From IMG/VR virus record IMGVR_UViG_3300043409_003117, positions 1 through 64,000 of that record: DNA of 64,000 bases; one strand, 5' to 3'. Of the stretch, positions 2,285-58,521 are shown in pieces. The notes under the pieces are model-generated. The model was not told where the DNA came from. It saw only the letters and a program-made list of their open reading frames with translations, and searched no databases. This DNA comes from a virus. The translations under genes were made by a program, and so were the position numbers. Each line of letters opens with the position of its first letter. Positions within the stretch are counted from its first letter, which is position 1.

Positions 2285-2310
2285 CGTGTGGTTATTTCTA
2301 TATTAATTTT

Positions 2311-2325: not shown

Positions 2326-2346
2326 ATTAAATAGCAATTTTAATCT

Positions 2347-4407: not shown

Positions 4408-4425
4408 AAATATTAATTGTTATAA

Positions 4426-5013: not shown

Positions 5014-5014
5014 A

Positions 5015-8076: not shown

Positions 8077-8128
8077 ACAAACTAGTGTTAAATAATAAAC
8101 CCATTATTAAATTATAGTATAATATTAA

Positions 8129-8947
8129 ATGAATTACCACGAAGCCCAAGCAACATCAAACACTGATCATAATTTTAATGCCTATTATATAGGAAAAGTC
8201 GAGGCAATAGACGATCCTAAATTTGAAGGGCGATGTAAAGTTAAAGTATTTTCACTATTTGATGATATGGATATTGCTGATTTACCATGGGCAACACCGG
8301 CAGCAAAGCCTACAGTTTTTGGACAAGATGCGCGGGCTGGGTCAATTTCAATTCCAAAAATAGGTGCAGTAGTTGGTGTTAAATTTAATAATGGAGATAT
8401 TTATTCTCCAGAATATTCTCAAGTTCAAGAATTAGGCGAGGATATTAAGGAAGAATTAAAAAAAGGTAATACTCCAGAAACATTTAGAAAAAAATATGAA
8501 GGTTCTCATTTTATCCTATTTGATGGTGATGAAGAAATTAAATTTTGGTTTGACCGAGAAATTGGTTTACAAATGGAACTTAAGCAGTCATTTATTAGAA
8601 TTGATAATGAAACTTCAAATATTTTAATAGAACATAAAGACAATCATTCTCAAATTGGACTAGAAAATACGGTTATTAGAATAGTTGCGGATTCTGAAGT
8701 TAGAATAACCGGAACCTCTAAAATTACTGCAACTTCAAAAACCGCTCATATAAATTCAAAAACAACAATCCTTGGCGCAAGTGGAGTACAGTATAGTGCA
8801 GTATTGGGAGAACCTCTTTTTGCAATACTTAAAGTAATGGCTGCAACAATTGATGCAAAAGTACCGTCTACGGCTGGAGCACTAAGTTCGGCAGTAGATG
8901 CAGCAAAAGTTCAAGTTCTGTCTAGAACAGTAACAATTGGAACTTAA
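8129..8947 (+). CDS. 5: Baseplate central spike, gp5-like OB-fold protein without lysozyme domain
   Basis: This 272-residue protein has an N-terminal OB-fold of the gp5/gpV type: YYIGKVEAIDDPKFEGRCKV at about 20-40, DLPWATPA at about 52-59 and IPKIGAVVGVKFNNGDIYSPEY at about 74-95. Residues 150-215 are a repetitive beta segment (IRIVADSEVRITGTSKITAT, then KTAHINSKTTILG) likely to form the triple-stranded beta-helix needle. T4 gp5 has an inserted lysozyme domain, and none is present here. The ATG at 8129 is preceded by an A/T-rich leader. The stop overlaps the convergent gene by 4 bases. Confidence 0.75.
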   Translation: MNYHEAQATSNTDHNFNAYYIGKVEAIDDPKFEGRCKVKVFSLFDDMDIADLPWATPAAKPTVFGQDARAGSISIPKIGAVVGVKFNNGDIYSPEYSQVQELGEDIKEELKKGNTPETFRKKYEGSHFILFDGDEEIKFWFDREIGLQMELKQSFIRIDNETSNILIEHKDNHSQIGLENTVIRIVADSEVRITGTSKITATSKTAHINSKTTILGASGVQYSAVLGEPLFAILKVMAATIDAKVPSTAGALSSAVDAAKVQVLSRTVTIGT

Positions 8948-9774
8948 GAAACTATCTTAAATTCATTTTCACAAGAAATTAAGGGTGTAGATTTAGTAAT
9001 TGAGTCTAGATCGCCAAGGTGAGCTCCTTTAAATTGAAGCAGCCCTGTTAATTTTGCACTGTCAATACTATCAGCCATTTCAGAAAGTTTATTTCGGTCT
9101 GGAAAATATCGACTTGATGCTAAATATTTAGATAAGAGGTCAGCCCTAACCATTTCCATATGATGCATTGAAATTTGACTGCGCTCAAATATTCTAGACT
9201 TAAAATATGAATCGTCTATCATTCCGCGAGTAGGGTCAATGCCTGAAAAAATAAATTGACTTGCATGGTGTCTGGATTGTGAGGTTATTCGATAAATAAA
9301 TGGAACTCTCCATCTGGCATGACCTCGGTGTAGAGTTGGAGTAACATAGTTTATATAGTGAACCGCTGTTGCATCTAAATTAAAAGTTTCAATTTCAGCC
9401 TTGGCCCAGCTAAACTCAGAGTCTCTATAAAACTCGTCTGCGTCCATTGAAAGGTAATGAGTTGCACCTAATTTAAAGGCAAGTTCAAGACAACCTTGGC
9501 GCTTTACTAATTCAAATGACTTTGCCTGTAAAACTTCAGCTGGCGAAATTAATGAGCTTGGCTTAAAATTTTTAAATTCAATAAGTTCATCAATTAAGCC
9601 CAGATTTTGTAGCCTAGTAAGAGTCGGGATAAGTTCAGGATTCGCTAAGGTTCCTCCCCAAGAGGTGGTTTGATATGAGACTATTATAATATCAACCTGC
9701 AATCGGATTGACCGCAGAGAGGCTTCTAGTGTTTCAAGTCCATCAAATACTACATATCCTGCTGCAAGTTTCAT
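8944..9774 (-). CDS. Glycosyltransferase-like protein (DxD)
   Basis: The 276-residue product starts MKLAAGYVVFDGLETLEASLRSI and has a DxD-type metal-binding motif, HYLSMDADEFYRD, near residue 110. A GT-A Rossmann-like pattern (DIIIVSYQ) lies near the N-terminus. This matches the GT2/GT92-like glycosyltransferases found in sugar gene clusters. It is the last gene of the minus-strand sugar island and converges on the spike gene with a 4-base overlap and no terminator. The donor and acceptor sugars cannot be inferred. Confidence 0.6.
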   Translation of the reverse strand: MKLAAGYVVFDGLETLEASLRSIRLQVDIIIVSYQTTSWGGTLANPELIPTLTRLQNLGLIDELIEFKNFKPSSLISPAEVLQAKSFELVKRQGCLELAFKLGATHYLSMDADEFYRDSEFSWAKAEIETFNLDATAVHYINYVTPTLHRGHARWRVPFIYRITSQSRHHASQFIFSGIDPTRGMIDDSYFKSRIFERSQISMHHMEMVRADLLSKYLASSRYFPDRNKLSEMADSIDSAKLTGLLQFKGAHLGDLDSITKSTPLISCENEFKIVS

Positions 9775-9788
9775 GAGTTTAATTTACT

Positions 9789-10523
9789 CTATTCAACGGT
9801 TATTGTTTCGCCACTTTGTCTAGCGCCTAATTGGTCGGCAAACACTGCTTTATATTGTACATATTCTCTAGTAGGATAACACTCTCCATAATTAGAAAAC
9901 ATTAATTGGTATATATGGAAATCTAAAGCCGCAGTCATTGGAGATGGGTACCAAATATTTTTATCTGTAAAGTTTGATCTTCTAAATGTAACTTGGGTAG
10001 AATCACATTTGCCGGCTGGTGCAGTAGGCCCATGGTCTATATTTAGACTAACCGTTAACCTAACTTTTTCTATTTTTTGAAAGTCTTCAGTGGCAGTTTC
10101 AATTGAACCAGTTGTTGGATTATAGTATTTAACAAATGAATAAGACCAGTTAATTGTAGGATTTTCAGTATAGAATTTATCTAATTTATTTAGTCCATCT
10201 GATATTAGTGCATCATCATCACACAGAATAACTATAACATCTGCATCAGAATTTCTGATTGATTCATTCATAAAATGGCCATGCCTAGATCCGCCAACTG
10301 ATTTCTTTATTTCGTCAGTATCATAGGTTGGAATATACGTTATTTTAGAATTATCTAAGCCGGCAGTTAAGAGAGTTTCTTTAAAAGAATCATCCCCAGA
10401 ATCATCAATAAAATCTACATGCCAATTTTGATATTGTAGATTTTTTATACTATTTAAAGCATTAAATACCATTACTGGCCGCTTGTAATAGGCAAGAATG
10501 ATTAAAAATTTTATATTTTCCAT
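9789..10523 (-). CDS. Family 2-like glycosyltransferase
   Basis: The 244-residue protein begins KFLIILAYYKRPVMVFNALNSI, a GT2 start. VDFIDDSGDD follows near residue 37, then the metal-binding segment DADVIVILCDDDALISDGL near 93-111. It lacks the long C-terminal region of processive GT2 enzymes, so single-sugar transfer is likely. The ATG touches the stop of the SDR gene upstream. Acceptor unknown. Confidence 0.7.
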   Translation of the reverse strand: MENIKFLIILAYYKRPVMVFNALNSIKNLQYQNWHVDFIDDSGDDSFKETLLTAGLDNSKITYIPTYDTDEIKKSVGGSRHGHFMNESIRNSDADVIVILCDDDALISDGLNKLDKFYTENPTINWSYSFVKYYNPTTGSIETATEDFQKIEKVRLTVSLNIDHGPTAPAGKCDSTQVTFRRSNFTDKNIWYPSPMTAALDFHIYQLMFSNYGECYPTREYVQYKAVFADQLGARQSGETITVE

Positions 10524-11167
10524 TATAAACCTCCAGTTATTTTTATAGTTGAGCCATTAACATACTCCGTATCAATCAAATATTTAATTGTGTTTGCTAT
10601 TTCTTCAGGTTTACCTAATCTTTTTGCAGGAATAGAGTTCACAATTGTTTCTATAAAGTCAGGGCTTAATGTATAGGTTAAACCTCCATCCATATAACCT
10701 AATTGAATGCAGTTAGCAGTTATACCGGTTGAAGCATTTTCCATAGATATGGTTTTAACTAAATTTTCCATATATGCTTTAGATGCAGCATATACCCCGG
10801 TGCCCATTACATTACGATCAACTGTTATGCTTGATGCAATTATAATTCTTCCAAATCTTTGCTCTCTCATAGATTTTAAAGCTCGAGTAATACTTTGGGT
10901 TATACCGGTTATATTGATATTGATTTGTTTTAACAATTGGTTATCCGTATCATTTGTATATTTATGCATAAACGAATTATAATTGTAATTATTAAAAATA
11001 ATTAAGACTTCAATATCTTTATTATTTTTAAAGTACGAGTCTATTGTTTCTAAATTTTCAAAATTAACAAGCTTAGAGCCGACTACATCAATAGTATGTT
11101 CAGTTAAGTAATTTTTAACTTGGGATCCAAGACCACTCGTACCACCAAAGAATGCTATTTTTCTCAT
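10523..11167 (-). CDS. Short-chain dehydrogenase/reductase (SDR)
   Basis: This is a 214-residue NAD(P)-binding SDR. It has the glycine motif FFGGTSGLGSQV at residues 6-17, the active-site serine in RIIIASSITVDRN, and the catalytic pair in YAASKAY (Y-x-x-x-K). The C-terminus GSTIKITGGL is of the FabG type. In this setting it could reduce or epimerise a sugar intermediate. Its ATG overlaps the stop of the PhyH-family gene by 4 bases, showing translational coupling. The family call is firm; the substrate is unknown. Confidence 0.85.
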   Translation of the reverse strand: MRKIAFFGGTSGLGSQVKNYLTEHTIDVVGSKLVNFENLETIDSYFKNNKDIEVLIIFNNYNYNSFMHKYTNDTDNQLLKQININITGITQSITRALKSMREQRFGRIIIASSITVDRNVMGTGVYAASKAYMENLVKTISMENASTGITANCIQLGYMDGGLTYTLSPDFIETIVNSIPAKRLGKPEEIANTIKYLIDTEYVNGSTIKITGGL

Positions 11168-12033
11168 ATTGTATGATTAAGTATATTTTTTGCCGATAAG
11201 TCTTTATCTGAAAATTCGCCTTTACTTCGGTTTGAAAATAATGGTGAATAGTAGTGGTCACAACCTTCAAAATAAAAGTGAGTGGCTTGAGCATATCTAG
11301 TAGAGTCAGGATTAGTGATCGGAGCTCCACCATGTAAAAGATTTGAAGCCCATATCAAAGTTTGCCCTTTCTTTCCTAACCAATTAACCTTTTCTTTTTT
11401 CATAGCTTTCATTAATTGAATTAAGAAGTTTTCGTACTCTTGATAATTTTCAAATTGAGAACCGAATTTTGGTTTTTCCAAATTTATTGATTGAAAATCG
11501 TAAAAAGGTAATTTGTGACTGCCTGGTACTATATTAAGAGGACCACAATCTTCAGTCATATCCTGTAAAGCGGTCCAGGTACCAACCATCCACCGTTCCG
11601 GCTGAGTGTAAAAATGAATAGCATCTTGATGTAACGGTTGATTACTACCTTTTAAGAAGTTAATAGTTTGAAACGGTATAGGCTTTCTTCCATAAAGTAA
11701 TTCCAGGGTAGATATAATTTTTGGGTGCCTTGCCAATTCTAAAATAAATGGATTGGTTTTCCAGCCTTCAAAAATTCTAGGCGAGTCTGAATAGTGATAT
11801 CTAGGATCTTGCGTTTTAATATTCTCAAGTTCTTTATTGACTAACATTAACAGATTATCAATATATTCATCAGTTAAGTCTAAGTCAACTACAGTATAAC
11901 CGTTTTTGTTATAATATCGTAGGATTTCTTCTTCCTCTTTAGTGTAGTTGGAGTTCTCCATTATTGAATCAAAAAAAGGAGACTCAATCCATGGAATATC
12001 CATGGTATTTTTATCAATTAAATAGTTTTTCAT
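11164..12033 (-). CDS. PhyH-family Fe(II)/2-oxoglutarate dioxygenase
   Basis: The 289-residue protein has the phytanoyl-CoA dioxygenase signature. The iron-binding H-x-D is in QPLHQDAIHFYT (about residues 131-142), GPLNIVPGSHKLPFYD follows, and the distal His is in LLHGGAPITN with the 2-oxoglutarate-binding Arg in DSTRYAQA. Such enzymes hydroxylate small molecules or modified sugars and lipids. It is embedded in the sugar island with overlapping neighbours. The substrate cannot be told from sequence. Confidence 0.85.
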   Translation of the reverse strand: MKNYLIDKNTMDIPWIESPFFDSIMENSNYTKEEEEILRYYNKNGYTVVDLDLTDEYIDNLLMLVNKELENIKTQDPRYHYSDSPRIFEGWKTNPFILELARHPKIISTLELLYGRKPIPFQTINFLKGSNQPLHQDAIHFYTQPERWMVGTWTALQDMTEDCGPLNIVPGSHKLPFYDFQSINLEKPKFGSQFENYQEYENFLIQLMKAMKKEKVNWLGKKGQTLIWASNLLHGGAPITNPDSTRYAQATHFYFEGCDHYYSPLFSNRSKGEFSDKDLSAKNILNHTI

Positions 12034-12039
12034 TTGCTT

Positions 12040-12798
12040 TTATTTATTTCCTACAGTATATATGAATTCTAATTCATCTACCGATTTTATTGAATATGGA
12101 AATTGACTACTATGATTAGTGTAGTTATCACATAAACAGTTAAAGTCAGGATGGTTTTTTAATACCTTCCCTTCTACGTTTAATCGACCTGTAAATTCTA
12201 TTTCTAAATTTTCAAAATAGCCATAACTATTTATTGATTCTCTGTGCGCCGGTAATATATCATTTATGATTGAGTCTTTGGTATAAACATAAGACATCCA
12301 TTGAGTTGAGGTTAATCCACAACCTCCGCCTGAATGCATTTTACTGGAACTACTATTAATCGTATAGTCAGAAATTGGAGCTAACGAAACAAAACTAACG
12401 GTATCTTTATTACTTTCAAAAAAGTCTACAAAAGACTTCATATATTGGTCCTTATGTATTAAAACATCATCTTCACAAAAGAACCAATGTGTGTAATCAT
12501 TTTTGTATCGATAAAAAGAATCAAAATAACAGCCAAAAGAAGCTCCATAATTATCTCTATTAAAGACGATTATCTTTCCATTTTTAGTTGGTAGGTTATT
12601 GTATTTAGCCAATGCACCATCTAGTTCAGGATTTCCACAATTATTAACAGATATGATAACGTCAGTTGAATATCCATTGTCTATATTAATTTCATTTTCA
12701 ATAACCAAATTAACAAATCCTAGTATATCTTTAGGATTGTTGTTGCTATCTCTTCTTTCTCCAAAATAACAAGCTATGACTTTTGCACATTTAATCAT
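12040..12798 (-). CDS. Glycosyltransferase-like protein
   Basis: The 252-residue product has a GT-A style layout: KVIACYFGERRD at the start, VIISVNNCGN near residue 48, IIVFNRDNYGASFGCYFDSFYRY at about 75-97, and an acidic metal-site candidate in WFFCEDDVLIHKD at about 105-117. This resembles GT2-like enzymes of lipopolysaccharide loci. The final ATG overlaps the stop of the acetyltransferase gene upstream. The function is inferred from fold pattern and context. Confidence 0.55.
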   Translation of the reverse strand: MIKCAKVIACYFGERRDSNNNPKDILGFVNLVIENEINIDNGYSTDVIISVNNCGNPELDGALAKYNNLPTKNGKIIVFNRDNYGASFGCYFDSFYRYKNDYTHWFFCEDDVLIHKDQYMKSFVDFFESNKDTVSFVSLAPISDYTINSSSSKMHSGGGCGLTSTQWMSYVYTKDSIINDILPAHRESINSYGYFENLEIEFTGRLNVEGKVLKNHPDFNCLCDNYTNHSSQFPYSIKSVDELEFIYTVGNK

Positions 12799-13364
12799 TT
12801 TGGAAATTTACAAAAATTTGGATCGTTAGCTAGATTAATAACGTTTTCTTTGTTTCTTGGTTTATGTAGAGCTAGAGGATTTCCTAAATACACATTCCAA
12901 GGTTCAAGAATATTTTTTGTATAGATAAAACTCTTAGCACCAACTGTGCAGCCTTCAGGAATTTTAACGCTTGGCATAACCATAACATCAGATGCAATAC
13001 CTGAGTAATTTTCAAATGTTATATCGCCTCTGAATATTTTGTTTTTACCCCAATACTCATTAACTGGTCCAAATTCTCCTGAATAATCTTCAGATGCACA
13101 AAATAATTTAGAACCATATCCAATAAATACCCAATCTCCTAATGTGATTTTGTGGTTACTTCCACCACCTAATACTGCATGTGAACATATTTGAATATTG
13201 TCACCAGTTTCTAGTGCAGTTGTTATCAAGGTAAAAGGATCAATCCTTACATTATTACCTAAGTGTACGTTTTTAGGATTTGTGAATATAACATAGTGTC
13301 CGATAAACACATTTTCTCCACAAGAGCCCAATTCTTTTTTTATTTCTTCATTCCATCCTATCAT
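12795..13364 (-). CDS. Left-handed beta-helix acyltransferase (hexapeptide repeat)
   Basis: The 189-residue protein shows hexapeptide-repeat periodicity: NVFIGHYVIFTNPKNVHLGNNVRI, then ICSHAVLGGGSNHKITLGDWVFIGYGSKLF, then IASDVMVMPSVKIPEGCTVGAKSFI, each broken here by variable loops. The C-terminal VYLGNPL matches the WbbJ/maa type O- or N-acetyltransferases. Beside a DegT-type aminotransferase it could acetylate an amino sugar. The family is confident and the substrate inferred. Confidence 0.85.
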   Translation of the reverse strand: MIGWNEEIKKELGSCGENVFIGHYVIFTNPKNVHLGNNVRIDPFTLITTALETGDNIQICSHAVLGGGSNHKITLGDWVFIGYGSKLFCASEDYSGEFGPVNEYWGKNKIFRGDITFENYSGIASDVMVMPSVKIPEGCTVGAKSFIYTKNILEPWNVYLGNPLALHKPRNKENVINLANDPNFCKFPK

Positions 13365-13367
13365 AAT

Positions 13368-14060
13368 TTATTTAGTTATTTTAAAAATTTCGTGAACATG
13401 TTCTCCCTGTGCGGTAAATGATATATGTTTATGTATTTTAAGATTATTATTTTTACAATAGTCATTTAATTCTGATTCTTGTATATAACTTTTACCATAA
13501 AATCGTTCCCATATATGTGGTTCAGGACTTTCAGTTTTACTAAAGTCAGATGTAAAACAAGAAAAAATTATGTCACAGTTTGGGTTTTTATCAAAAACTT
13601 TAATTAATGTGTCTAATATCTGAGTAATATCACTAATAAGTAGATGAGTAAACACCGATATTAAAATAATTGAATCTATTTGTTTTGAAAGACAAAAATC
13701 TAAATCATCGTTAATTAATCCTAAAAAAACCCTTTCATCTTTAAACAAATTTTTACCTAAAGCTATTCTTTCTTTTCCATGAGGTGTATTAGGTTCTAAT
13801 CCATAGTAGTTAAAGTCGGATAATCTCTCACTTATAAAGTTACTTAAAATTCCGGCACCACACCCATAATCTAACACTGAAAAACCATTTGTAAATTTAT
13901 CTTTAGCCGCATCTAAAAAACAACACATTCCAATTGACGCTAATGGTTCAATATTAGTACCACCATATGAAATTGCTGGTGGATTTGTTACAATCGGATT
14001 AGCGTTTTTAACTGACCAAAATAAATCCCATATTTCCATTACCATCCTTTTTTTATACAT
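13368..14060 (-). CDS. SAM-dependent methyltransferase, class I
   Basis: The 230-residue protein has the SAM-binding glycine motif VLDYGCGAGILSNF near residues 60-73 and the acidic residue after strand 2 in NYYGLEPN. DSIILISVFTHLL at about 122-134 matches the motif IV region. It resembles small-molecule methyltransferases of sugar and natural-product clusters. The start overlaps the aminotransferase stop by about 22 bases; the internal ATG at residue 6 (MVMEIWD) is an alternative start with less overlap. Confidence 0.8.
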   Translation of the reverse strand: MYKKRMVMEIWDLFWSVKNANPIVTNPPAISYGGTNIEPLASIGMCCFLDAAKDKFTNGFSVLDYGCGAGILSNFISERLSDFNYYGLEPNTPHGKERIALGKNLFKDERVFLGLINDDLDFCLSKQIDSIILISVFTHLLISDITQILDTLIKVFDKNPNCDIIFSCFTSDFSKTESPEPHIWERFYGKSYIQESELNDYCKNNNLKIHKHISFTAQGEHVHEIFKITK

Positions 14061-15205
14061 TCAACAATATATTGTCTCTCTTCTTCGGTTATCCACCAGC
14101 CAACTGGAATTGAAACAACTTTACCAATTGTTTTATCCAATGCAGGCAAACCGGTTTTAAATTCTCTTACGCATGAGTGCTTATCATTTCTTTCATGAAC
14201 TTGAGAAACTACAATTCCACATTCTTGCATATGCTTCATAAATTTTTCACGATCATCAACTAAAAGGCTGTATATCCAAAATGCTGATTCATGACCTTCA
14301 TGTCTTTTAAGTAGAGTTACTTTGCTAACGTCTTTTAAATTATCATCGTAATATTTTGCATTACTTTGGTGTTTAGCAATAATTTCTTTTGCCGATTTAA
14401 GATTTTCAATACCTACAGTTGCACATACGTCATTCATATGGAATTTAAAACCCCATTCTTCAATATCAGATTCGCATCTAAAATCTTTTCGGTTTCCTTC
14501 TCTATCAATACCGTACCATCTAATTAATTTAGACCTATTGTAAAGTTCTCTATGAGGCAGAACTAAAACTCCACCGTCAATTGCGGTTATGTGTTTGATT
14601 GCCTGTAGCGAATACATAACAATATTATTATGATTTCCTAGATATTTACCTTTATACTTTGTTCCTAGTGAATGTGCGCCATCTTCAATTACAGCAGGTT
14701 TAAATCCATGTAAGTTTTTAGCCTTTTCTTGAATTTCTTTAATTCGATCTAAGTCGCTAGGATATCCGCCCCAATGAACTAACACAATAGCTTTGGTTTT
14801 TGACGTAATTTTTCTTTCTAAATCATCCAAGTCCATATTTAAAGTAGTTGGATCTATATCAACCCATTTTATGTTTAAGTTGTTAGCTAGGATTGGGAAG
14901 TTTGAAGCCGTACAAGTTAAGGCTGTTGCTAAAACCTCGTCGCCTTCTTCAATACCTGGCCAATAATTTTCTGAATTTTGATTTCCTACCGGTTTCTTAA
15001 GTAGGTGTAAGGCTAAATGTAGTCCAGACGTACCAGAATTTAAAGTAACAACATAGTCTCTATCTAAAAAAGTTTTTAGATTAGATTCGAATTCATCTAC
15101 TTTAGGACCTTGTCCTATGAATCCACTGTTTAAAACTTTTCCAACTTCTTCAGCAGCGGTTGGTGCCATAAACACTTTAAATAATGAAATTTGCTTTTTT
15201 TCCAT
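14039..15205 (-). CDS. DegT/DnrJ/EryC1-family sugar aminotransferase
   Basis: This is a 388-residue PLP-dependent aminotransferase of nucleotide-sugar pathways. It has the FIGQGPKVDEFE start motif (29-40), LNSGTSGLHLAL (55-66), the PLP ring-binding Asp175 in AVIEDGAHSLG, and the Schiff-base lysine K204 in YSLQAIKHITAIDGG. Length and motifs match functional members. Together with the downstream acetyltransferase it suggests synthesis of an N-acylated amino sugar. An A/T-rich 28-base gap separates it from the upstream gene. Confidence 0.9.
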   Translation of the reverse strand: MEKKQISLFKVFMAPTAAEEVGKVLNSGFIGQGPKVDEFESNLKTFLDRDYVVTLNSGTSGLHLALHLLKKPVGNQNSENYWPGIEEGDEVLATALTCTASNFPILANNLNIKWVDIDPTTLNMDLDDLERKITSKTKAIVLVHWGGYPSDLDRIKEIQEKAKNLHGFKPAVIEDGAHSLGTKYKGKYLGNHNNIVMYSLQAIKHITAIDGGVLVLPHRELYNRSKLIRWYGIDREGNRKDFRCESDIEEWGFKFHMNDVCATVGIENLKSAKEIIAKHQSNAKYYDDNLKDVSKVTLLKRHEGHESAFWIYSLLVDDREKFMKHMQECGIVVSQVHERNDKHSCVREFKTGLPALDKTIGKVVSIPVGWWITEEERQYIVECIKKGW

Positions 15206-15233
15206 AAATTTATTTTTTTTTAGTTATATGTTT

Positions 15234-15878
15234 TTATTTATTGTTAATTATTTTAAATGCCTCTTCAGCTAAGTTTTTGGCATGAAATCCAAATGTATCG
15301 GTTGGAACATGAGTACTATCCATTGGTATTTCTACTGCAAATCTAGTGGCAAGTTCAACTGGGGCAATAGTCAAACCGGCATCTGCAATTTCAGTTTTAT
15401 ATACAACGGCAATAAGAACATCTTCATTTAACGTGCAGTTTAAGTTTTTTGTAAATTCTAATAATTTTTTACTACGTAAAGAGAATCCTCCATTTCCAAC
15501 TTGCGAGCCAACAGTTGGCCAACCTATATACAGGGGCCATGGTGCACCAATATAGTCATATTTTAAAAAGTCAGCTGACCATAACTCTGGATTAAGAATA
15601 AAGCCGTCATCTTGAAAAACTAAACAAAATTCAGTATCTACATAACTATGTAATTTATTAATACAAAATTGTGAATATTCTTGAATTGTCAGCGGTTCAA
15701 TCTGGATAAATTCAACTCCATCTACCATTGGATCCTCTAAACTTATCATTTTTATTTTACCAAAAGTTACACAAGATAACATATACTTTAAAATAGTTTG
15801 ATAATTGGCTTGCCTGGCCGGGTCAACAGGTCGCCCGTCTATACAAATTGCAGTTACATTAGATAGGTCAAGTTTCAT
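15234..15878 (-). CDS. DUF5672-like glycosyltransferase
   Basis: The 214-residue product carries FCLVFQDDGFILNPELW and KYDYIGAPWPLYIGWP, followed by VGNGGFSLRSKKLLEF. This arrangement is typical of DUF5672 proteins, putative GT-A glycosyltransferases in surface polysaccharide clusters. The QDDG motif is the likely metal and nucleotide-sugar site. It is the fourth glycosyltransferase-like gene from the promoter-proximal end of the island. Confidence 0.75.
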   Translation of the reverse strand: MKLDLSNVTAICIDGRPVDPARQANYQTILKYMLSCVTFGKIKMISLEDPMVDGVEFIQIEPLTIQEYSQFCINKLHSYVDTEFCLVFQDDGFILNPELWSADFLKYDYIGAPWPLYIGWPTVGSQVGNGGFSLRSKKLLEFTKNLNCTLNEDVLIAVVYKTEIADAGLTIAPVELATRFAVEIPMDSTHVPTDTFGFHAKNLAEEAFKIINNK

Positions 15879-15881
15879 AAT

Positions 15882-16604
15882 TTAGTTATATAATTTTATG
15901 TAATCTAAAATTTCGTTAGGTATATTTCCAATTTGGTTATCTTTACTGATACCAAAATTTTCTTCTAGCCTTTTTTTAAATATTTCCATTCCAGAATAAA
16001 ATGTATTTTGATTTTTATTATCTATGTGATCTTTATCACGATGACCTTGTGTATAGTGTAAGTGATTAAAAATAATATTATGTGCGTGTATTAAGTATCC
16101 TTCTAAATGAGCAACGCACGTTAAATCAGTATCACAAAACATATGTTCATATTCTGGATAATATATCCAGGATTTTCTTTTTAAATATTCAGAAGAAAAA
16201 ATTGGCATGGTGATTAGGTCAGTTCCAATACAGTCGCTAGTTTTAATTATAAATACCGTATTACCTTCTCCAATACAGCTAATAATTTTTTTATCCCAGC
16301 CAGTAAAACAGTCAGTATCATCTGATATAATAAAAATTAAATCGCCGTCTATGTGCGGTTTACATCTATTTATAGCCTGAACGGTATTTGTATTGTCATT
16401 AATAATTAATTTTATTACTACATCAGTATATAAGGTAAGATCATTTAATACTTTTGTATACTGATCCTTTGTTGGATCAGTTTCATCAATTGATATTATA
16501 ATAGAAAGATTTTTTGGATTACTAGATTCTTTTATAAATTTAGTAAGGACTTCTACTAGATTAGTAGGTCTTTCTCTAGAAGCAGCGACTAAATTTATTT
16601 TCAT
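15882..16604 (-). CDS. Family 2-like glycosyltransferase
   Basis: The 240-residue protein begins KINLVAASRERPTNLVEVLTKF, a GT2-type start. It has IIISIDETDPTKD near residue 35 and a D-x-D-like segment DLIFIISDDTDCFTGWD near 90-106. A histidine-rich stretch (HLHYTQGHRDKDHID) lies near residues 185-200. Its start overlaps the GT10-like gene upstream by 4 bases. Function assigned by fold pattern only. Confidence 0.65.
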   Translation of the reverse strand: MKINLVAASRERPTNLVEVLTKFIKESSNPKNLSIIISIDETDPTKDQYTKVLNDLTLYTDVVIKLIINDNTNTVQAINRCKPHIDGDLIFIISDDTDCFTGWDKKIISCIGEGNTVFIIKTSDCIGTDLITMPIFSSEYLKRKSWIYYPEYEHMFCDTDLTCVAHLEGYLIHAHNIIFNHLHYTQGHRDKDHIDNKNQNTFYSGMEIFKKRLEENFGISKDNQIGNIPNEILDYIKLYN

Positions 16605-17440
16605 TTTTTTATCATATTATATATTATATCATCAGCTGAGTCTAAAGATTTAACTCTTTCTAAATTTTCAATAATATATGGCATCATTGATTCATAAAGG
16701 TCTGGAGTTAATGAGTCTACTCCTTTAAAATCTTCCCAAAAAATTATTCCATTTGGATTAAAATCTTCACTAACCTTTTTGGTACCCCAATAAATTGGAA
16801 TAGTCCCAGTTGCAAAACAGTCAGTTATTTTTTCAGTGTAATACTTATCGTATACTGCATTTTCAAAAGTAACTGAAAAACGATAGTCTTTTAGGGCAGG
16901 TAATTTAGATCTCCACCAGTCTCCACTAGGGCCAATACCTTGACCTATTCTTTGAGAACCATGTGCTCCACCAAATAGATCAATTTTATCTTTTAACTGG
17001 TCAGCAATTTCTAACCTAAATTGATGGCCTTTGGTTCTTGACTTTGGTGAACAAATCATTGAACAAGATTTTGTTTTTTGATAAATCTTCATTTCATCTA
17101 ATTTTGTCCATGGTAAATTTGAACCCGGTGGAGCATATATGAAAAATGGATCGGTTAATAAGGTTTCATCACATGTAAAAATTCCACTAAAATATTTTTT
17201 ATAATGTTCAATATTTGATTTTATTTTTCGGTATTGATCATCACAAATATCTCTAGATTCACATAGCCAGCCAAATTTAGTTGGAGTAGCTCTATCGAAT
17301 AAGCCTTGATCAATTGCTCCATCTATATAAATTTTAATAGTTGAAGGCCCAGAGGTCCACTTAAATAATTTAGGTGATAAATTTGAACACGAAGAGTATT
17401 CCTGCGGAAATGGTAAGCCTATTCCTGTTATTTGTTCCAT
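16601..17440 (-). CDS. Fucosyltransferase family 10-like glycosyltransferase
   Basis: The 279-residue protein shows the GT10 (alpha-1,3-fucosyltransferase) C-terminal signature. FSVTFENAVYDKYYTEKITD is followed by CFATGTIPIYWGTKKVSEDFNPNG, corresponding to the family's FENS, DYVTEK and G-x-x-P-V-Y-x-G blocks. The ICSPKS region near 130 and the GAHG near 157 are compatible with the N-terminal Rossmann domain. It may transfer fucose or a related deoxysugar from a GDP donor. The start overlaps the next gene by 13 bases. Confidence 0.75.
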   Translation of the reverse strand: MEQITGIGLPFPQEYSSCSNLSPKLFKWTSGPSTIKIYIDGAIDQGLFDRATPTKFGWLCESRDICDDQYRKIKSNIEHYKKYFSGIFTCDETLLTDPFFIYAPPGSNLPWTKLDEMKIYQKTKSCSMICSPKSRTKGHQFRLEIADQLKDKIDLFGGAHGSQRIGQGIGPSGDWWRSKLPALKDYRFSVTFENAVYDKYYTEKITDCFATGTIPIYWGTKKVSEDFNPNGIIFWEDFKGVDSLTPDLYESMMPYIIENLERVKSLDSADDIIYNMIKK

Positions 17441-19152
17441 ATTTTATCCCAGTTTTTTTCCCAATTATAATCTTCAGTTATTTCAATATCAGTAGAGTTA
17501 AGCTCTTTAGTTAAAAAATCATAAAAAAATATTTGATTACCGGATTCAACTATTAACTGTTTTAAATATTTTGATTTAGAGGCTTTTAATGATTCATCAA
17601 AACAAAATCTAATTCTACTGGTATTTGAAAAATTTAATAGACATGAATATGCATTAATAAAAGCTGAGTCCTTTATCTCGGTAAACTTGATATTAAAAGT
17701 TTTAGTACCGGCACTGATATTCCAACGTTGATTATCGGTTAGTGAATTTACTTTTCTAAAAACTTCACCTTTTTCTGGCATATTACTATTTCCATTATCA
17801 ATATATCGACCATGAACAAAATCCATCCAATTATTGGATAATAATTTAACTGAAAATTCACTTTCTAATTTAGGAATAACATAGTGTTTAATTGCATCAT
17901 GGTCTAATTCAACAATGCCTTTTGCTAGTGCACAGCTACTATGAATTACCCATTCTCTAATTACCTTAAATGCCCCAATTGTGTAATTAAAAAATATAGG
18001 TGAAGCCTTTATTCCAGTCATATCTCCGCTATGGGTTGCCATGGCCAAGTCTTCACCTATATCATTAAATTCAGCAAATGGCTCCTTAAATGTAGTATCG
18101 CAGTCCATCCAAATTAATGACTTTTTATATTCAATTAACTTTTCTAAAATAAATTGAGGTTTCATTAAACAGTTTGAAGAATAGTCTCCAATTGGCTCTT
18201 TTTTTACAATATCGTGCTTTACTGAAAATTCAGCACACTGTCTTTTTAATTTTTCTGCAAAATTTAGATAATAGTTTCGGTTATTTGAGTCTGAATGAAA
18301 ACTAACGATTAATGGGGTCATTTTTGCTAAGTTTGTTAACTTGCGTGATGATTTAATTAATGTAATTTCTTTAGTAATTGACGGGTCAGTGATTGATGGT
18401 TCATTGATTGATTGAATTGAATTAACAATAGATTTAGCAATTGATCCAGTTTTTTTAATAATTTTAGTTAATGAAGTAGATTTATTTTTATTAATATGAA
18501 GATCTCGTATTTGAAATAACTCTTTGAAATAAGGTTTTCCAACTGAATCAAAAAGATCAATTGCAATAAGTTTATCAATATTAGGAGAGGCAGTAGTAAC
18601 CGGTTCCCTAAATATAAAATAGTGACTAATTGACTTGTCTGAAAAGGACGGTGAATTTGCAATAAAATATGAAAACATTCCAATAATTGACTGTACTCCA
18701 AAATCGGCAATCGAAAATGCAGCAGTTGCGGCATTCGCAACAGTACTATTTAAATTAACAGTAAATAGGCTAGATGAAATTGTTCCTGTATGGTTTTTAT
18801 AAAAGGTATTTGCCGTATTGCTAATTGGAACTCTATTAACAATAAAAATATTTGGGTCAATTACTGTTAATCTATCAGCACCAGTATAAGAAAAGGCTGA
18901 AATAATTGATGGATTAATTATAAATTTACCAGTTGATCGTTTTTTTGCAAGTTTAGAGTTATAATCTGGATATAATTTAACTATATTAACTGATTGAGAT
19001 AGGGCGGTTAATATTTTAGATGGAATTTCTGATTCTGAGCAAATTACTAAATGGTCAGGTTCTTCATCTAAATTATAAATAAGTGATTCTATATTTTTAA
19101 CAAAAATATCAACTACATTTTCTGAATAATAGGTAAAAATTGCAAATTTCAA
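17428..19152 (-). CDS. Two-part glycosyltransferase-like protein, first gene of the sugar island
   Basis: This 574-residue protein starts with TTG (rc 19150-19152). The N-terminal part (1-200) looks GT-like (MKFAIFTYYSENVVDIFVKN, then DHLVICSESEIP, RLTVIDPNIFIVN). After a Ser/Thr/Ile-rich linker (about 235-290) a second domain contains LIVSFHSDSNNRNYY and SLIWMDCDTTFKEPF, a DxD-type site typical of nucleotide-diphospho-sugar transferases. It is the promoter-proximal gene; the upstream intergenic region separates it from the divergent DnaJ-like gene. Confidence 0.6.
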   Translation of the reverse strand: MKFAIFTYYSENVVDIFVKNIESLIYNLDEEPDHLVICSESEIPSKILTALSQSVNIVKLYPDYNSKLAKKRSTGKFIINPSIISAFSYTGADRLTVIDPNIFIVNRVPISNTANTFYKNHTGTISSSLFTVNLNSTVANAATAAFSIADFGVQSIIGMFSYFIANSPSFSDKSISHYFIFREPVTTASPNIDKLIAIDLFDSVGKPYFKELFQIRDLHINKNKSTSLTKIIKKTGSIAKSIVNSIQSINEPSITDPSITKEITLIKSSRKLTNLAKMTPLIVSFHSDSNNRNYYLNFAEKLKRQCAEFSVKHDIVKKEPIGDYSSNCLMKPQFILEKLIEYKKSLIWMDCDTTFKEPFAEFNDIGEDLAMATHSGDMTGIKASPIFFNYTIGAFKVIREWVIHSSCALAKGIVELDHDAIKHYVIPKLESEFSVKLLSNNWMDFVHGRYIDNGNSNMPEKGEVFRKVNSLTDNQRWNISAGTKTFNIKFTEIKDSAFINAYSCLLNFSNTSRIRFCFDESLKASKSKYLKQLIVESGNQIFFYDFLTKELNSTDIEITEDYNWEKNWDKIWNK

Positions 19153-19234
19153 ATCTAATATTATTTTTTTGATTAAATAAACTTAATTTATATACTTAGT
19201 AATATACTTTAAAAATAATATTAGATTTACGGTT

Positions 19235-20116
19235 TTGAAAAATTATTATGATATATTAGAAGTATCTAAATCAGCTGATCAGGATACAATTAAACAGGCT
19301 TATCGAACTCTATCAAAAAAGTTTCATCCAGATAAAAATCCAGATGGAGAGGCTAAATTTAAGGAGGTATCTGAAGCATATGATACACTAGGTGATGTTA
19401 CAAAAAGAGCAACTTATGATAATCCACCGCGACAAAGCTATTCAAATTTTTCAGGTTTTAATACAACCTTTACTGATTTCTCTTTTGCTCATACTAATTT
19501 AGCAAATCTTAATATACAAATAGATCGTAATTTTAAAATTGCTGAATTAATGGCAGGAGTTGAGTTTACGGTTAATTATAAAATTTCAAAATCTAATTCC
19601 GCAGGGTCAACTGTTGAAGATAAGTCAATTAGAATAAAATTAAATTTATCAAATCAAGCCTATCCATTTACTCAGGTTGGTGCAGATAATGCAATTATTC
19701 TTAAAGTTAGAGGTGGAGGTTCTAGTCAAGTAACAAATAGTTCTGATTTTTTCGGAAGACCGATACAGTCTCATGTTAATGGAGACCTAATTATTAGAGT
19801 AATAATAGATCTACAGGGTTTATCAATAGATGAAAGCGACTTGGTACAACCGGTTGAAATTAGTTTATATGAATCACTATTTAATGATGAACTTGTATTG
19901 GAAAATCCATTAGGTAAAAAATACAGAATAAAATCATTTAATTCAAATAATTTATCAGATTTAAAGGTTACAATACCCGGCCATGGATTATTTGCACCAA
20001 GCGGAGCTACTGGGTCATACGTATTTGATATTAAAATAAAAAAAATAGACCTTTCTAAACTTAGCGAATCAGCTTTAGCCAATTTTAAAGAATTACTTAG
20101 TGAGTTTGATAAATAA
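19235..20116 (+). CDS. DnaJ-like co-chaperone lacking the zinc domain
   Basis: The 293-residue protein starts with TTG. Residues 1-66 form a J domain ([20 protein letters not shown], the HPDKN motif near 32-36, [15 protein letters not shown]). A short GF-like linker follows, then a C-terminal substrate-binding region with KVRGGGSSQ near 163-171 and [10 protein letters not shown] near 246-255, as in class B DnaJ. No CxxCxGxG zinc repeats are present. It should stimulate a DnaK ATPase, presumably the host's. Its position directly before the head genes suggests help in capsid or scaffold folding. Confidence 0.85.
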
Positions 20117-20178: not shown

Positions 20179-22167
20179 TTGGCTAATACTACTATAACAA
20201 ATTTAAATACAAAAAGCTTAGGTAAAGATCAAGTTTTTATTATTGAGAAAAGCAATCAGGCATTAGAAGCAACAACAAATGCAGATGGATCAATTATACT
20301 TGAGGGAATATGTGCAGTTTTTGGACAAAAAAATGAAAATAATCGCGTTTACGAAAAACAGGAGTATTTACCTCACTTAAGTTATCTAAATGAAAAAATA
20401 AGTAAAGGTCAACTGTTTGGAGAATTAGATCATCCTCAAAGTTTTGATGTTTCTCTTAAAAATGTATCGCATGTAGTTATAGGACTAGCACATGACGAAC
20501 CTAGCAATAGTATAAAAATTCGGCTTAAAGTATTAGATACACCATGTGGTCGTATTGCAAAAACTCTAGTTCAGTCAGGCTGTACAATTTCAAGTTCGTC
20601 AAGAGCAGCTGGTCAAGTTGGAGATGGTGGAAAGGTTAAGTTGCAAAAAATATTTACATATGACCTAGTTGCTGAACCAGGTTTTTCACAAGCTTCACTA
20701 AGTCAAGTATCTGAAAGTTTAAAGGGTAATTATTCATCACTATTTGAATCATTAGATACTTTAAAAATGACTTCTATCACAAATAATTTAAAAGATATAT
20801 CAGAAAGCTTTAGTTTTGAAGATTCTGTTAAAATATACCAAATAAATAACTCTGATATTATAAAAACACAACAAAATAACAAAAAGCACATGGCTACTGA
20901 CTTTGTAACAAAAAATGAAATGAATCAATATTCTCAATTGGTTAAGAATAAATTTCAAAAACTTCAAGAGAATATTTCAAAGAATAATACTAAATTAAGT
21001 TCATTAAATGAAAATTCTGAAGATCCTCAAGTAACTGGTAAGTTAGTTGAATACGTTAATTATTTAGCAGGCGAAATGGAGAAAATGGTTGGATATACTA
21101 ACTATTTGTCAACTATGTTAAATAAAGGAATTGACTATACTGAACATGTTGCTGAAAAGGTTAATAATGTAATTGACTATAGCGACTATTTAGCTGAAAA
21201 AGTAGAAAAGAATATTGGATATTCTGACTATTTAGGCGAAAAAGTTAATCAGTCTATTAATTATGGTGAGTATATTGCAGAGAATGTTGAAAAGACAATT
21301 GCCTATACTAATTATCTTGCTGAGAACGTAGATAAAGGAATTCAATACTCTGAATACGTTGCTGAAAGTGCAGAAAAAGGAATTAAATATTCTAACTACC
21401 TTGCAGAAAACTTAGATGCAGCAATTAACTACTCTAATTATTTAGGAGAAAATTTACAGAAAGGAATAATGTATTCTGAATATATTGCTGAAACTATGAA
21501 TGAAAAAATCACATCTAATGTTGATGTTAAAGCTCGTAGATTATTATCAGACGTTAAAAAATTAAATGAAGGAGCAAATTATCAAGTTGATGAAACTTCT
21601 GGAGTTGATGATTTAACCAGTGCAGTTGATGGAATATTAACTCATATTAAATCTAATTCAGCAAATACAGTTTTAGAGAATAAGTATCCATTTCTTAAAT
21701 TGTTAAGCGAATCTAATAAACAAAAATTCTATGGTTTAGATCAACCAACTAAGGCTTCAATTGTTGAAACTATGAGAGGCGCTATCTTCTTTACTGAAGG
21801 AGAAGTTATTAATATCATGGAAGCAGTATTAAATAAGCAAACTGAAAATACTCCAAGCTATATTAAATTTATGCCTGAAAAATATAAATCTATAGTTGAA
21901 AGTATGAATGAGGCTGAATTAAATTGGATTTCGGCACAGGCTTCAAGCCTAGTAGTAAATACTCAATATCAAGCAAAAGCATTCTGGGATTCTCGCGATC
22001 TTCGCCCGATTACAGAAAGAATTGCTCAAGAATCAATTAATACATCAAACAATATTAACGAAAGCCACGGTAAAGAAGGTTTTGTTTCGTTAAAACAAGT
22101 AAATCAAAGTCTAAGAGGTTACTCAGATAACTACTTAGCTGCTCTACAAAGAAGAGCACAAAATTAA
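20179..22167 (+). CDS. 21: Prohead protease (gp21-like) fused to a repetitive scaffold (gp22-like)
   Basis: The 662-residue protein begins with TTG. Residues 1-215 match the T4 prohead protease (peptidase family S77): GQLFGELDHPQSF puts the catalytic His at residue 85 and CTISSSSRA puts the nucleophile serine cluster at 138-141, close to the T4 positions His85 and Ser140. Residues 238-289 are a helical linker starting at an internal Met. Residues 290-443 are eleven 14-residue repeats, and 444-662 is a helical C-terminal domain with GANYQVDETSGVDDL and FWDSRDLRPITERIAQESI. T4 encodes protease and scaffold separately. The fused form would bring protease to scaffold at 1:1 unless the scaffold is also made from the internal start. 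Confidence 0.8.
   Translation: MANTTITNLNTKSLGKDQVFIIEKSNQALEATTNADGSIILEGICAVFGQKNENNRVYEKQEYLPHLSYLNEKISKGQLFGELDHPQSFDVSLKNVSHVVIGLAHDEPSNSIKIRLKVLDTPCGRIAKTLVQSGCTISSSSRAAGQVGDGGKVKLQKIFTYDLVAEPGFSQASLSQVSESLKGNYSSLFESLDTLKMTSITNNLKDISESFSFEDSVKIYQINNSDIIKTQQNNKKHMATDFVTKNEMNQYSQLVKNKFQKLQENISKNNTKLSSLNENSEDPQVTGKLVEYVNYLAGEMEKMVGYTNYLSTMLNKGIDYTEHVAEKVNNVIDYSDYLAEKVEKNIGYSDYLGEKVNQSINYGEYIAENVEKTIAYTNYLAENVDKGIQYSEYVAESAEKGIKYSNYLAENLDAAINYSNYLGENLQKGIMYSEYIAETMNEKITSNVDVKARRLLSDVKKLNEGANYQVDETSGVDDLTSAVDGILTHIKSNSANTVLENKYPFLKLLSESNKQKFYGLDQPTKASIVETMRGAIFFTEGEVINIMEAVLNKQTENTPSYIKFMPEKYKSIVESMNEAELNWISAQASSLVVNTQYQAKAFWDSRDLRPITERIAQESINTSNNINESHGKEGFVSLKQVNQSLRGYSDNYLAALQRRAQN
20890..22167 (+). 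CDS. Possible internal in-frame start producing scaffold alone
   Basis: Met238 of the protease-scaffold frame (ATG at 20890) is preceded by an unusually A-rich stretch (20868-20886, mostly A with scattered C/T). That resembles the leaders of other genes here, such as the capsid gene. Translation from it would give a 425-residue scaffold (MATDFVTKNEMNQYSQL) without the protease. The start opens with MAT, like the baseplate gene at 6526 and the capsid gene. This is an inference analogous to lambda C/Nu3. Confidence 0.4.
   Translation: MATDFVTKNEMNQYSQLVKNKFQKLQENISKNNTKLSSLNENSEDPQVTGKLVEYVNYLAGEMEKMVGYTNYLSTMLNKGIDYTEHVAEKVNNVIDYSDYLAEKVEKNIGYSDYLGEKVNQSINYGEYIAENVEKTIAYTNYLAENVDKGIQYSEYVAESAEKGIKYSNYLAENLDAAINYSNYLGENLQKGIMYSEYIAETMNEKITSNVDVKARRLLSDVKKLNEGANYQVDETSGVDDLTSAVDGILTHIKSNSANTVLENKYPFLKLLSESNKQKFYGLDQPTKASIVETMRGAIFFTEGEVINIMEAVLNKQTENTPSYIKFMPEKYKSIVESMNEAELNWISAQASSLVVNTQYQAKAFWDSRDLRPITERIAQESINTSNNINESHGKEGFVSLKQVNQSLRGYSDNYLAALQRRAQN
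21046..21507 (+). repeat. Eleven 14-residue scaffold repeats with protease-like sites
   Basis: Units at residues 290-443 follow the form I-x-Y-[ST]-x-Y-[LIV]-[AG]-E-x-[VL]-x-x-[GN], for example IDYSDYLAEKVEKN and IAYTNYLAENVDKG. Two heptads per unit predict a continuous coiled coil. Ten of the eleven units contain [LIV]-[AG]-[EG]; nine have Glu in the third position. Confidence 0.9.
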
Positions 22168-22188: not shown

Positions 22189-23913
22189 ATGGCAACAAAA
22201 ATTTTCAAAAGATTGAACGATGCTTCAATCAAAGAAACTTGGACCCCAGTATTAGAAGGTTATGGTGCAAACGTTTCAGCTCGCCCTTGGTTAGTTGACT
22301 ACGCTCACAACCATGCAATTTTCGAAAATGCAGGTTCATTAAACGAAGCTTTAAACACAACAGGCTCAGCTCCAGGTTTGTTTTTACAACAACCAGGTTC
22401 TATCTCTTCAATCGGTGCAATTAGTTCTCCAACAAGTTCTATGACTCCTTTTACTGCAGGTTCTAAAAATGGTTACGGTGCTTCTGTATCTGGTTCTGGT
22501 GATAAATTCCCAAGCCTTTTACCAGTAGCAATTCAAGTAGCTGCTAAAACTGTTGGTTTCGACCTAGTTGGTGTAGTTCCGATGGATTCTCCAGTAGGTT
22601 TCTTACCTTATTTGGATTATGTATACCAAGGTGGTAATACTGATACTCAGTACGAACCATTCTTAGTTAAGTTATCAAGTGCTCTTAATACAGCAATTGT
22701 AGCTGGAGAATATATCCAAGCAGAAACAGACGCTGCAAGTGGCGTTGGTGCATTTAAATTTCAATTCGTTGGAAAATCTCGTATAGACGGTTTACCAATA
22801 CTTAAAGTAGTAACTGGAGCAACTGATTCAGTTAATACAACTACTGTAGCTACTGCGGTAACTGCATTAGATGACGCAACTCATAGTGGTAACCGTACGG
22901 ATACTAGTAATAGTGCATTAGGTACAACTGCTCGTCCATGGTTAGGTTTTGGTGGAGCTGCAGGTATGACTGTTAGTTTAGTATCTGCATTAGAAAATCA
23001 TATTACTGGTTTTACTTCAGTAAGTGATACTGACTATGCTGCTACTTCATTCCAAGGTCCTTTCTTAAACTCAAGTGAAAATCTTGAAATGGAAGGTATG
23101 ACTCGTGCAACTGCTGAAAGTTCTAAATTCCGTCAAATGGGTCTTCGTATGTTTACGAAATTCATTGAGGCAAAAGGAGATCAAGTTTCTATTTCTGCAA
23201 CAGTTGAGCAAATCCAAGATCTTAACCGAGTTTGGAATTTCGACGTAATGTCAATGTTAGAAAACGTTGCTGTTAACGAATTAGCTCAATCTATTAACAA
23301 AAAATTAACTGATAGAGTTTTATCGTTAGGTCAAACTCATGCTACTGCAGTTAATTCAGTTGAAGGTTCTGGAATTACCACTTTAAACTTAACAGTTGGA
23401 ACTGGTTTTGAGAATATCTCAACTTTACAACGTCGTGTTGTTACTAAAATCCTTGAAATGGCTAACTTGATTTATCATAGAGGTCGTTTCGGTGCAGGTA
23501 CATACATCGTAACAAATGGCCGTGTTGCTTCTGCTTTAGCAGATGTTGCTGGTTATACTTTCGCTCCGTTCAATAACGATTTACCTTCTGGTGCTGGTCA
23601 ATTATACCCTGCTGGAAAAGTTCACGGTTTAACTGTGTATGTAGATCCAAACTTGAAATTTAGCGATAACCGTATCCATATCGGCCGTAAAGGTGCAGAT
23701 GAGGAGCCAGGTGTTAAATTCTTACCTTATATCATGGCAGAGAGTCTTCAAACAATTGCAGAGGGAACTTTCTCTCCAAAAATTGGTATGAAATCTCGTT
23801 ATGCAATCACAGAAGCTGGATGGCATCCAGAAACTCAGTATATCACTATGAACGTAACAGGTCTTGGTGTATTAACTGGTTCAGTTGCTCCATCTACTGG
23901 TTACTCTGCATAA
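22189..23913 (+). CDS. 23: Major capsid protein, gp23-like, with inserted domain
   Basis: The 574-residue protein aligns by pattern with T4 gp23. It has a short N-terminal propeptide with a candidate protease site L51-N52-E53/A54. SLLPVAIQVAAKTVGFDLVGVVPM at about 110-133 matches the gp23 entry region, and RQMGLRMFTKFIEAKGDQVSISATVEQIQDL matches the E-loop and backbone helix region. Residues about 169-268 interrupt the HK97-type core at the place where gp23 carries its insertion domain. Codon use is richer in CGT, GGT and AAC than in the neighbours, as expected for a highly expressed gene. The leader is almost pure A/T, and a terminator follows. Confidence 0.92.
   Translation: MATKIFKRLNDASIKETWTPVLEGYGANVSARPWLVDYAHNHAIFENAGSLNEALNTTGSAPGLFLQQPGSISSIGAISSPTSSMTPFTAGSKNGYGASVSGSGDKFPSLLPVAIQVAAKTVGFDLVGVVPMDSPVGFLPYLDYVYQGGNTDTQYEPFLVKLSSALNTAIVAGEYIQAETDAASGVGAFKFQFVGKSRIDGLPILKVVTGATDSVNTTTVATAVTALDDATHSGNRTDTSNSALGTTARPWLGFGGAAGMTVSLVSALENHITGFTSVSDTDYAATSFQGPFLNSSENLEMEGMTRATAESSKFRQMGLRMFTKFIEAKGDQVSISATVEQIQDLNRVWNFDVMSMLENVAVNELAQSINKKLTDRVLSLGQTHATAVNSVEGSGITTLNLTVGTGFENISTLQRRVVTKILEMANLIYHRGRFGAGTYIVTNGRVASALADVAGYTFAPFNNDLPSGAGQLYPAGKVHGLTVYVDPNLKFSDNRIHIGRKGADEEPGVKFLPYIMAESLQTIAEGTFSPKIGMKSRYAITEAGWHPETQYITMNVTGLGVLTGSVAPSTGYSA

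Positions 23914-56186: not shown

Positions 56187-58521
<2,335 letters not shown>

Follow-up and report, generated by a model that had tools for sequence, protein, structure and literature searches.

On which molecules does a giant phage place the sugars of a large glycan locus that lies among its structural genes, and is that locus a late insertion or an old possession? The question is raised by positions 8944-19152 of the window, by which we mean the whole 64,000-nucleotide stretch analysed here (positions 1 to 64,000 of IMG/VR virus record IMGVR_UViG_3300043409_003117, a 64,946-bp virus fragment). This interval is occupied by 12 co-oriented minus-strand open reading frames (ORFs; 189-574 aa each) that overlap at 6 of 11 junctions and are otherwise separated by gaps of 3-28 nt, much as an earlier sequence-only reading, which described twelve sugar genes between a spike gene and a head operon, had it. 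Comparison with related phages reveals that the island consists of two constant ends enclosing a middle that is swapped gene by gene. We assign a probability of roughly 0.55 to the reading that this locus acts, in the host cytoplasm, on at least one virion protein. The genes of the island and its borders, including several predicted glycosyltransferases (GTs), are as follows.

8129..8947, plus strand: spike/baseplate OB-domain protein, gp5/VgrG-like, left border of the island
8944..9774, minus strand: g1, constant end gene, predicted GT-A glycosyltransferase with intact DxD (D111, D113); 3' end overlaps the spike gene by 4 nt
9789..10523, minus strand: g2, GT2-family glycosyltransferase, variable middle (PF00535, E 2e-5)
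10523..11167, minus strand: g3, short-chain dehydrogenase/reductase (PF13561, E 4e-26)
11164..12033, minus strand: g4, PhyH-type 2-oxoglutarate dioxygenase (PF05721, E 2e-19)
12040..12798, minus strand: g5, no family above cut-off
12795..13364, minus strand: g6, left-handed beta-helix (hexapeptide) acyltransferase (PF00132, E 1e-12)
13368..14060, minus strand: g7, S-adenosylmethionine (SAM) methyltransferase (PF13489, E 1e-8)
14039..15205, minus strand: g8, DegT sugar aminotransferase, CalS13 type (PF01041, E 7e-73; 4zwv 390 bits, CalS13 4zas 359 bits)
15234..15878, minus strand: g9, DUF5672, GT-like (PF18922, E 1e-20)
15882..16604, minus strand: g10, GT2-like (Pfam GT2 below its cut-off; phrog_14945, E 5e-11)
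16601..17440, minus strand: g11, GT10 fucosyltransferase-like (PF00852, E 2e-11)
17428..18342, minus strand: g12, C-terminal exchangeable domain with a DxD-like motif, 'WMDCDT'
18373..19152, minus strand: g12, N-terminal constant domain, GT8-like fold with degraded DxD
19153..19234, no strand: 82-bp divergent intergenic region between the island operon and the dnaJ operon, with a conserved AGTAWTATACT-like dyad
19235..20116, plus strand: DnaJ homologue, right border of the island

One site, occupied or empty

The virus is a freshwater-type giant phage: its capsid protein is closest to those of Lak megaphages and uncultured huge phages (30-37%) and its relatives include records of 253-271 kb, so the window represents a fragment of a huge-phage genome. 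Five scans of viral contigs, using the spike, the protease, GT10, a g1 alignment and a protease alignment, yielded 153 loci, 114 of which were merged to 70 segments plus the window; the other 39 (L060-L098), distant g1-like matches at 26-37% identity, were left out. Among the 29 ingroup loci that include both the spike gene and a full-length dnaJ, which are not independent events since several segments come from near-identical phages, 16 are occupied at exactly this site, with g1 adjoining the spike gene and the g12 N-domain adjoining dnaJ, and 13 are empty, the spike gene being followed directly by dnaJ; none has any other content. The 18 complete islands, among which we count L054 and L058 although each is truncated at one border, are 4.0-10.2 kb long, and in each of them every gene is co-oriented.

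The 3' end of g1 overlaps that of the spike gene by 4-30 nt in all 23 segments showing both. This conserved overlap of convergent 3' ends accounts for a feature that the sequence-only reading had taken as a sign of insertion, namely the missing terminator: none was found at the spike junction. No direct or inverted repeat of at least 9 nt, such as might mark the ends of a mobile element, links the two borders.

A middle exchanged gene by gene

Alignment of the window with its nearest relative locates the exchanged segments precisely. Nucleotide identity is 83% over 2250-9782, disappears over 9783-15233, returns at 85% over 15234-15895, a stretch comprising g9 alone between two replaced ones, is lost again up to 16616, and resumes at 95.3% from 16617 to at least 32000. 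Each break lies no more than about 17 nt from a gene end, and the genes kept are closely similar in the two phages (g1 97.1%, spike 92.9%, protease 98.0%), which indicates that the centre has been exchanged gene by gene and both ends kept. BLAST clustering sorts the middle genes of the 18 complete islands into 35 families. In organisation only, the locus resembles O-antigen loci, in which constant flanks enclose an exchanged centre.

The constant ends

The N-terminal domain of g12 (hereafter g12N) is constant and its C-terminal domain is not: 21 N-domains form one BLAST cluster, and the C-domains fused to them form five unrelated clusters, which profiles split further into a g12C type, a g10 type and a g1-like type, and among which Pfam names GT4-like and RgpF domains. 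The g10 family is itself found fused to g12N in other phages, and the g12 of L017/L018 is a single 701-aa ORF with an insertion. In L015/L016 (8073-10008) the place of the GT8-like domain is taken by an N-terminal LNPDV-type repeat motif in homologues of the g12 C-domain.

Neither g1 nor g12 (nor g5) has a Pfam family above its cut-off, and no link to solved GTs or Pfam was found for g1 or g12N at the level of sequence, one g1 row of 15 touching Glycos_transf_2 at E 0.17; their assignment depends on predicted structures, both of the GT-A fold. The g1 model (AlphaFold2, 15 sequences) has a mean pLDDT of 76.7 and a pTM of 0.81, and its top structural matches, tied within 1 Z unit, are ThuS (Z 14.1, rmsd 3.1, 162 aligned), WrtF (13.3) and TarP (13.1); the fold is also like SunS and TarS, SunS and ThuS being peptide glycosyltransferases. 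All 15 sequences keep both D111 and D113, and we predict that g1 is an intact transferase of the GT-A type.

The g12 model (20 alignment rows, pLDDT 74) is mostly at pLDDT 83-93 over the constant N-domain (residues 1-222), which matches best the Skp1 galactosyltransferase 6mw5 (Z 15.6, rmsd 3.4, 202 aligned), followed by glycogenin (15.4), GlyE (15.4) and LgtC (14.9). This is a GT-A fold of the GT8 type that lacks the metal-binding DxD motif: at the corresponding position, which we placed on the fold ourselves and not by residue-level structural alignment, the first Asp is kept, but not one of the 21 sequences has D as the third residue, which is instead N, S, H, Q, R or L. Because the second Asp is absent throughout, g12N is probably a dead enzyme, a pseudo-glycosyltransferase fused to exchangeable GT domains. 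A precedent for a degenerate GT that binds the acceptor for an active partner is GtfA/GtfB. Constant ends, a swapped middle and the probably dead GT8-like domain, like the hydroxymethylase gene described below, had been missed by the sequence-only reading.

Probably an old locus, sometimes lost

The sequence-only reading had proposed a later insertion, to be checked by comparing gene order in relatives lacking the island. Such relatives exist, in the form of the 13 empty sites, but they are nested among occupied ones and fit losses better. On a tree of DnaJ and protease (34 distinct tips, midpoint root) empty sites fall in three places, two within the ingroup and one in the deep outgroup (L126/L133); 3 losses suffice if the ancestor had the island and 6 gains are needed if it did not, a count that is not firm given support of 54, 73, 81 and 93 at the deciding nodes and the scoring of seven outgroup tips as occupied, both borders being observed just for G017 and G019. 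Those two outgroup islands, at the same site, measure 13-14 kb (L163, 3737-17944, from G017; L165, 3256-16591, from G019). Three outgroup records have full-length g1 orthologues (E 1e-68 to 1e-75) within GT clusters at this same locus. No such orthologue was found in the island-less records, but these are fragments of 40-116 kb, from which a relocated copy could be missing. The outgroup's third gene from dnaJ, too, has a conserved N-terminus and a variable C-terminus. At L126 (8628-8954) a single 108-aa gene, 63% identical to an intact outgroup-island gene, lies between spike and dnaJ, and we read it as a remnant of island loss. With the same site used across the ingroup and, for other genes, in the deep outgroup, and with empty sites nested, we reject later insertion and regard the locus as old, swappable and sometimes lost.

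Base composition gives no hint of recent import, since the GC content of the island genes (0.27-0.37) straddles the window mean of 0.315. A bacterial origin of g1 was considered and rejected, no relative having been found in a collection of genome contigs by a scan that depends on short conserved peptides; within the phage collection, g1 matches occur in Lak phages only (15 of 15 records).

Candidate sugars

Pfam backs the enzymes that the sequence-only reading had named as an aminotransferase (g8), acetyltransferase (g6), methyltransferase (g7), SDR (g3) and PhyH dioxygenase (g4). Of its seven glycosyltransferases, six (g1, g2, g9, g10, g11, g12) are borne out by Pfam or fold and g5 finds no support; the GT10 match of g11 exceeds its cut-off and covers profile positions 7-120 of 182. 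Its broader description, a glycan-making and glycan-attaching operon with an amino-sugar branch among structural genes, agrees with the matches of g8 to two 'putative aminotransferase' structures (390 bits) and to CalS13 (359 bits), far above all other matches. CalS13 acts on TDP-4-keto-6-deoxyglucose. By this resemblance we infer that g8 is a TDP-4-keto-6-deoxyglucose 4-aminotransferase, whose product, 4-amino-4,6-dideoxyglucose, could be acylated by g6 and methylated by g7. The 2-O-methyl-4-N-acetyl-viosamine of Mimivirus fibrils (PMC10117803) offers a suggestive parallel to such a product.

Genes that might supply fucose to the GT10 enzyme are present in some relatives. Of the two GT10-bearing records of at least 180 kb that were searched, G005 encodes a GDP-mannose 4,6-dehydratase (E 2e-91 to 1n7g) beside a gene that we read from its sequence as GDP-fucose-synthase-like, and G007 has a similar pair in the island neighbourhood. 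No such pair was found in GT10-bearing G010, a 95 kb fragment, and the GT10-less G001, G002 and G023 (253-271 kb) give weaker dehydratase-family matches only. The outgroup island of G017 encodes NeuB (Pfam E 1e-51; best PDB match pseudaminic acid synthase) and a CMP-sialate-synthetase-like protein, and ORFs with start sequences similar to both are present in G019. To our knowledge nonulosonic acids are borne by proteins and by surface glycans and do not occur on DNA.

Proposed mechanism

We propose that the products of this locus build a glycan in the host cytoplasm and attach it there, at least one virion protein being the most likely acceptor. The intact and constant g1 would start or cap the glycan; g12N would dock, holding the acceptor, while the fused C-terminal glycosyltransferase, whichever it is, does the chemistry. 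From the middle genes we would expect a 4-amino-4,6-dideoxy sugar that is N-acylated and probably also O-methylated and oxidised, built by aminotransfer (g8), acylation (g6), methylation (g7) and modification (g3, g4) and transferred by g2, g9, g10 and others, with g11 adding fucose. Exchange of the middle genes among phages would then give rise to 'serotypes', some lineages having lost the locus altogether. The most specific form of this proposal is tentative, and we think it possible without expecting it: that a dead, constant GT8-like domain, joined to a swappable active GT, docks to a single virion protein, so that coat sugars change by swapping catalytic domains and middle genes, or the coat is dropped. 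Were it true, an inactive transferase domain acting as the fixed adaptor for interchangeable transferases would represent a novel design; if the acceptor is on the virion, these phages would vary the chemistry of their own surface much as bacteria vary their O-antigens.

What the sugars may be attached to

A virion target is favoured because the island lies in the virion module and its divergent promoter region is shared with dnaJ and the capsid genes. The neighbouring structural genes, and a further gene that bears on the question of the target, are these.

20179..22167, plus strand: S80/S77 prohead protease
22189..23913, plus strand: major capsid protein, gp23 family
28130..29017, minus strand: dCMP-hydroxymethylase-like gene of the thymidylate synthase (TS) family, outside the island

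Several observations weigh against a virion target or the mechanism built on it. No virion acceptor protein was found, and we set aside one candidate whose length does not track island presence: the baseplate-like protein encoded at 6526-8076 (plus strand) has C-terminal tandem repeats (GPPTG-x-VYPN-x-TEP, with N-x-T sites) that differ strongly among close relatives (L003, L004) and are absent elsewhere, being expanded in some occupied genomes and short in other occupied ones and in empty ones. Empty lineages make the locus dispensable; donor-sugar synthesis genes were not seen within this 65-kb fragment; g5 is without a family; and homology between g12N and the constant N-domain of the outgroup was not demonstrable (hhalign probability 0.2%). 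The models of g1 and g12 rest on shallow alignments (15 and 20 rows), and a fold does not show function. Finally, the dCMP-hydroxymethylase-like gene points to modified DNA, to which GTs could add sugars.

This last point leads to the chief rival reading, which we hold unlikely, in which the island glycosylates 5-hydroxymethylcytosine (5hmC) in phage DNA as protection against restriction enzymes, g1 placing the first sugar on the base and the others extending it. Glycans of one to three sugars are known to occur on phage DNA, and sugar diversity would pay against nucleases as well. The gene product is closer to CMP/dCMP hydroxymethylases (E 1e-17) than to thymidylate synthases (E 1e-11), and at the cytosine-specifying position it shares Asp with T4 dCMP hydroxymethylase, where two PDB variants have Asn (the residue is found in 15 of 16 sequences, the sixteenth, G004, being outside the search pattern), so that a likely enzyme for the base precursor of a DNA hypermodification cluster, 5hmC or 5-hydroxymethyluracil (5hmU), is present. 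Its orthologues, however, occur in 19 of 20 records, including 5 of 5 island-less ones, where all five that were checked retain the Asp at 68-70% identity; that the gene is kept without the island weakens this reading, which the sequence-only reading had listed among possible targets. The gene also lies 9 kb away in the replication module, and the linkage or co-occurrence with GTs expected of a hypermodification cluster is lacking. Most island GTs are acidic (pI 4.7-6.7; g12N has a pI of 8.8), the outgroup islands encode nonulosonic-acid enzymes, and the island is within the virion module. Folds of the T4 AGT/BGT type are not among the structural matches of g1 and g12, which excludes nothing. 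The genome probably contains 5hmC, judging from this enzyme, and that modification probably belongs to the core of these phages, with or without the island.

The host surface, another target named by the sequence-only reading, would be altered (in its O-antigen, capsule or S-layer glycan) to keep out superinfecting phages; this reading seems to us distinctly improbable. The island families GT2, WbsX, RgpF and GT11 are typical of surface polysaccharide loci, yet among 147 island proteins (109 ingroup and 38 outgroup) there is no multi-pass membrane protein, hydrophobic segments numbering at most one, borderline, in 5 of them, where a transporter-like control scored 11. Soluble proteins of this kind, which include none of the usual flippases, polymerases or ligases (Wzx/Wzy/GtrAB-type machinery), make such modification unlikely. 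The sugar genes of pelagimyophages and cyanophages have been interpreted in print as surface-altering (PMC7029224, PMC7824862); the present locus is in the virion module and not with takeover genes, and a lytic phage would presumably gain little from a late change of surface. The soluble enzymes would also suit some other soluble target, such as a free or exported sugar signal or a modified host protein (a translation or defence factor), to which we give slightly less weight still: nothing positive points to it, and the position of the locus and the number of transferases fit a bulk structural acceptor better. A virion protein is the target that we prefer, and natural island-bearing and island-less relatives make the target of phage sugar genes directly testable.

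Relation to known systems

Host recognition clusters of pelagimyophages and cyanomyophages resemble this locus in being hypervariable, in containing GTs and in their fixed place in the structural region; the pelagimyophage clusters average 44.6 kb and include tail fibres (PMC7029224), whereas the islands here span 4-10 kb with no recognised fibre genes and differ in having two constant GT ends and empty sites. Fibril-glycosylation clusters of the Megavirinae (Mimivirus and relatives) comprise 6-33 genes for rare sugars of bacterial type, vary among clades and serve the virion surface (PMC10117803). They share with this locus a virus-encoded rare-sugar cluster, although the Megavirinae are eukaryotic giant viruses whose glycan is on virion fibrils, and fixed constant ends, a swapped middle and a pseudo-GT fusion do not appear in the available part of that description. 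Mycobacteriophage GTs glycosylate capsid and tail-tube virion proteins, a likeness that we draw from the sentence in PMC12619734 citing that work.

A separate N-terminal binding domain, as postulated for g12, has a precedent in the Caulobacter flagellin O-glycosyltransferase FlmG, a cytoplasmic enzyme whose N-terminal substrate-binding domain sets specificity and which works with NeuB; its target is flagellin, and in the available text no catalytic-domain exchange is reported and the binding domain is not described as GT8-like (PMC7591256). Moraphages are aquatic jumbo phages of mostly Bacteroidota hosts, related to Lak phages, with dnaJ, four core GT groups and variable islands; the accessible portion of that account does not contain this locus, its ends, swapping or empty sites (PMC12619734). 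It names the variable islands of aquatic huge phages as an open question, and one such island is resolved here; we found no description of the fixed-site locus in the open-licence papers searched. Sugar clusters of jumbo phages have also been interpreted as capsule modification (PMC7824862). In the cultured Flavobacterium phage immuto (on Flavobacterium sp. LMO8), which would make a practical model for experiments, a homologue of g8 (59%) stands beside GTs, a second transaminase, an epimerase and a methyltransferase, in a cluster (L166, NC_055915.1 49172-59988) flanked by small hypothetical and nuclease genes, not by spike and dnaJ.

Surroundings of the locus

The AGTAWTATACT dyad is conserved beside dnaJ. 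As an island-specific promoter motif it was rejected; with at most one mismatch allowed, the window has 11 copies where 7.6 are expected, and sequences like it remain where the site is empty, which makes a role for dnaJ more likely. A phosphoesterase (calcineurin-type, LpxH-like by our own reading) and a GT2 form a pair outside the island (L157, L158, L159, L160) that is common to the occupied G001, G002 and G023 and the island-less G012, and that could serve another substrate. Eight proteins tested against models of anti-phage defence gave no match. Besides DnaJ at 19235, the window encodes a second chaperone, a Cpn60 chaperonin (Pfam E 6e-66) at 56187-57758 on the minus strand.

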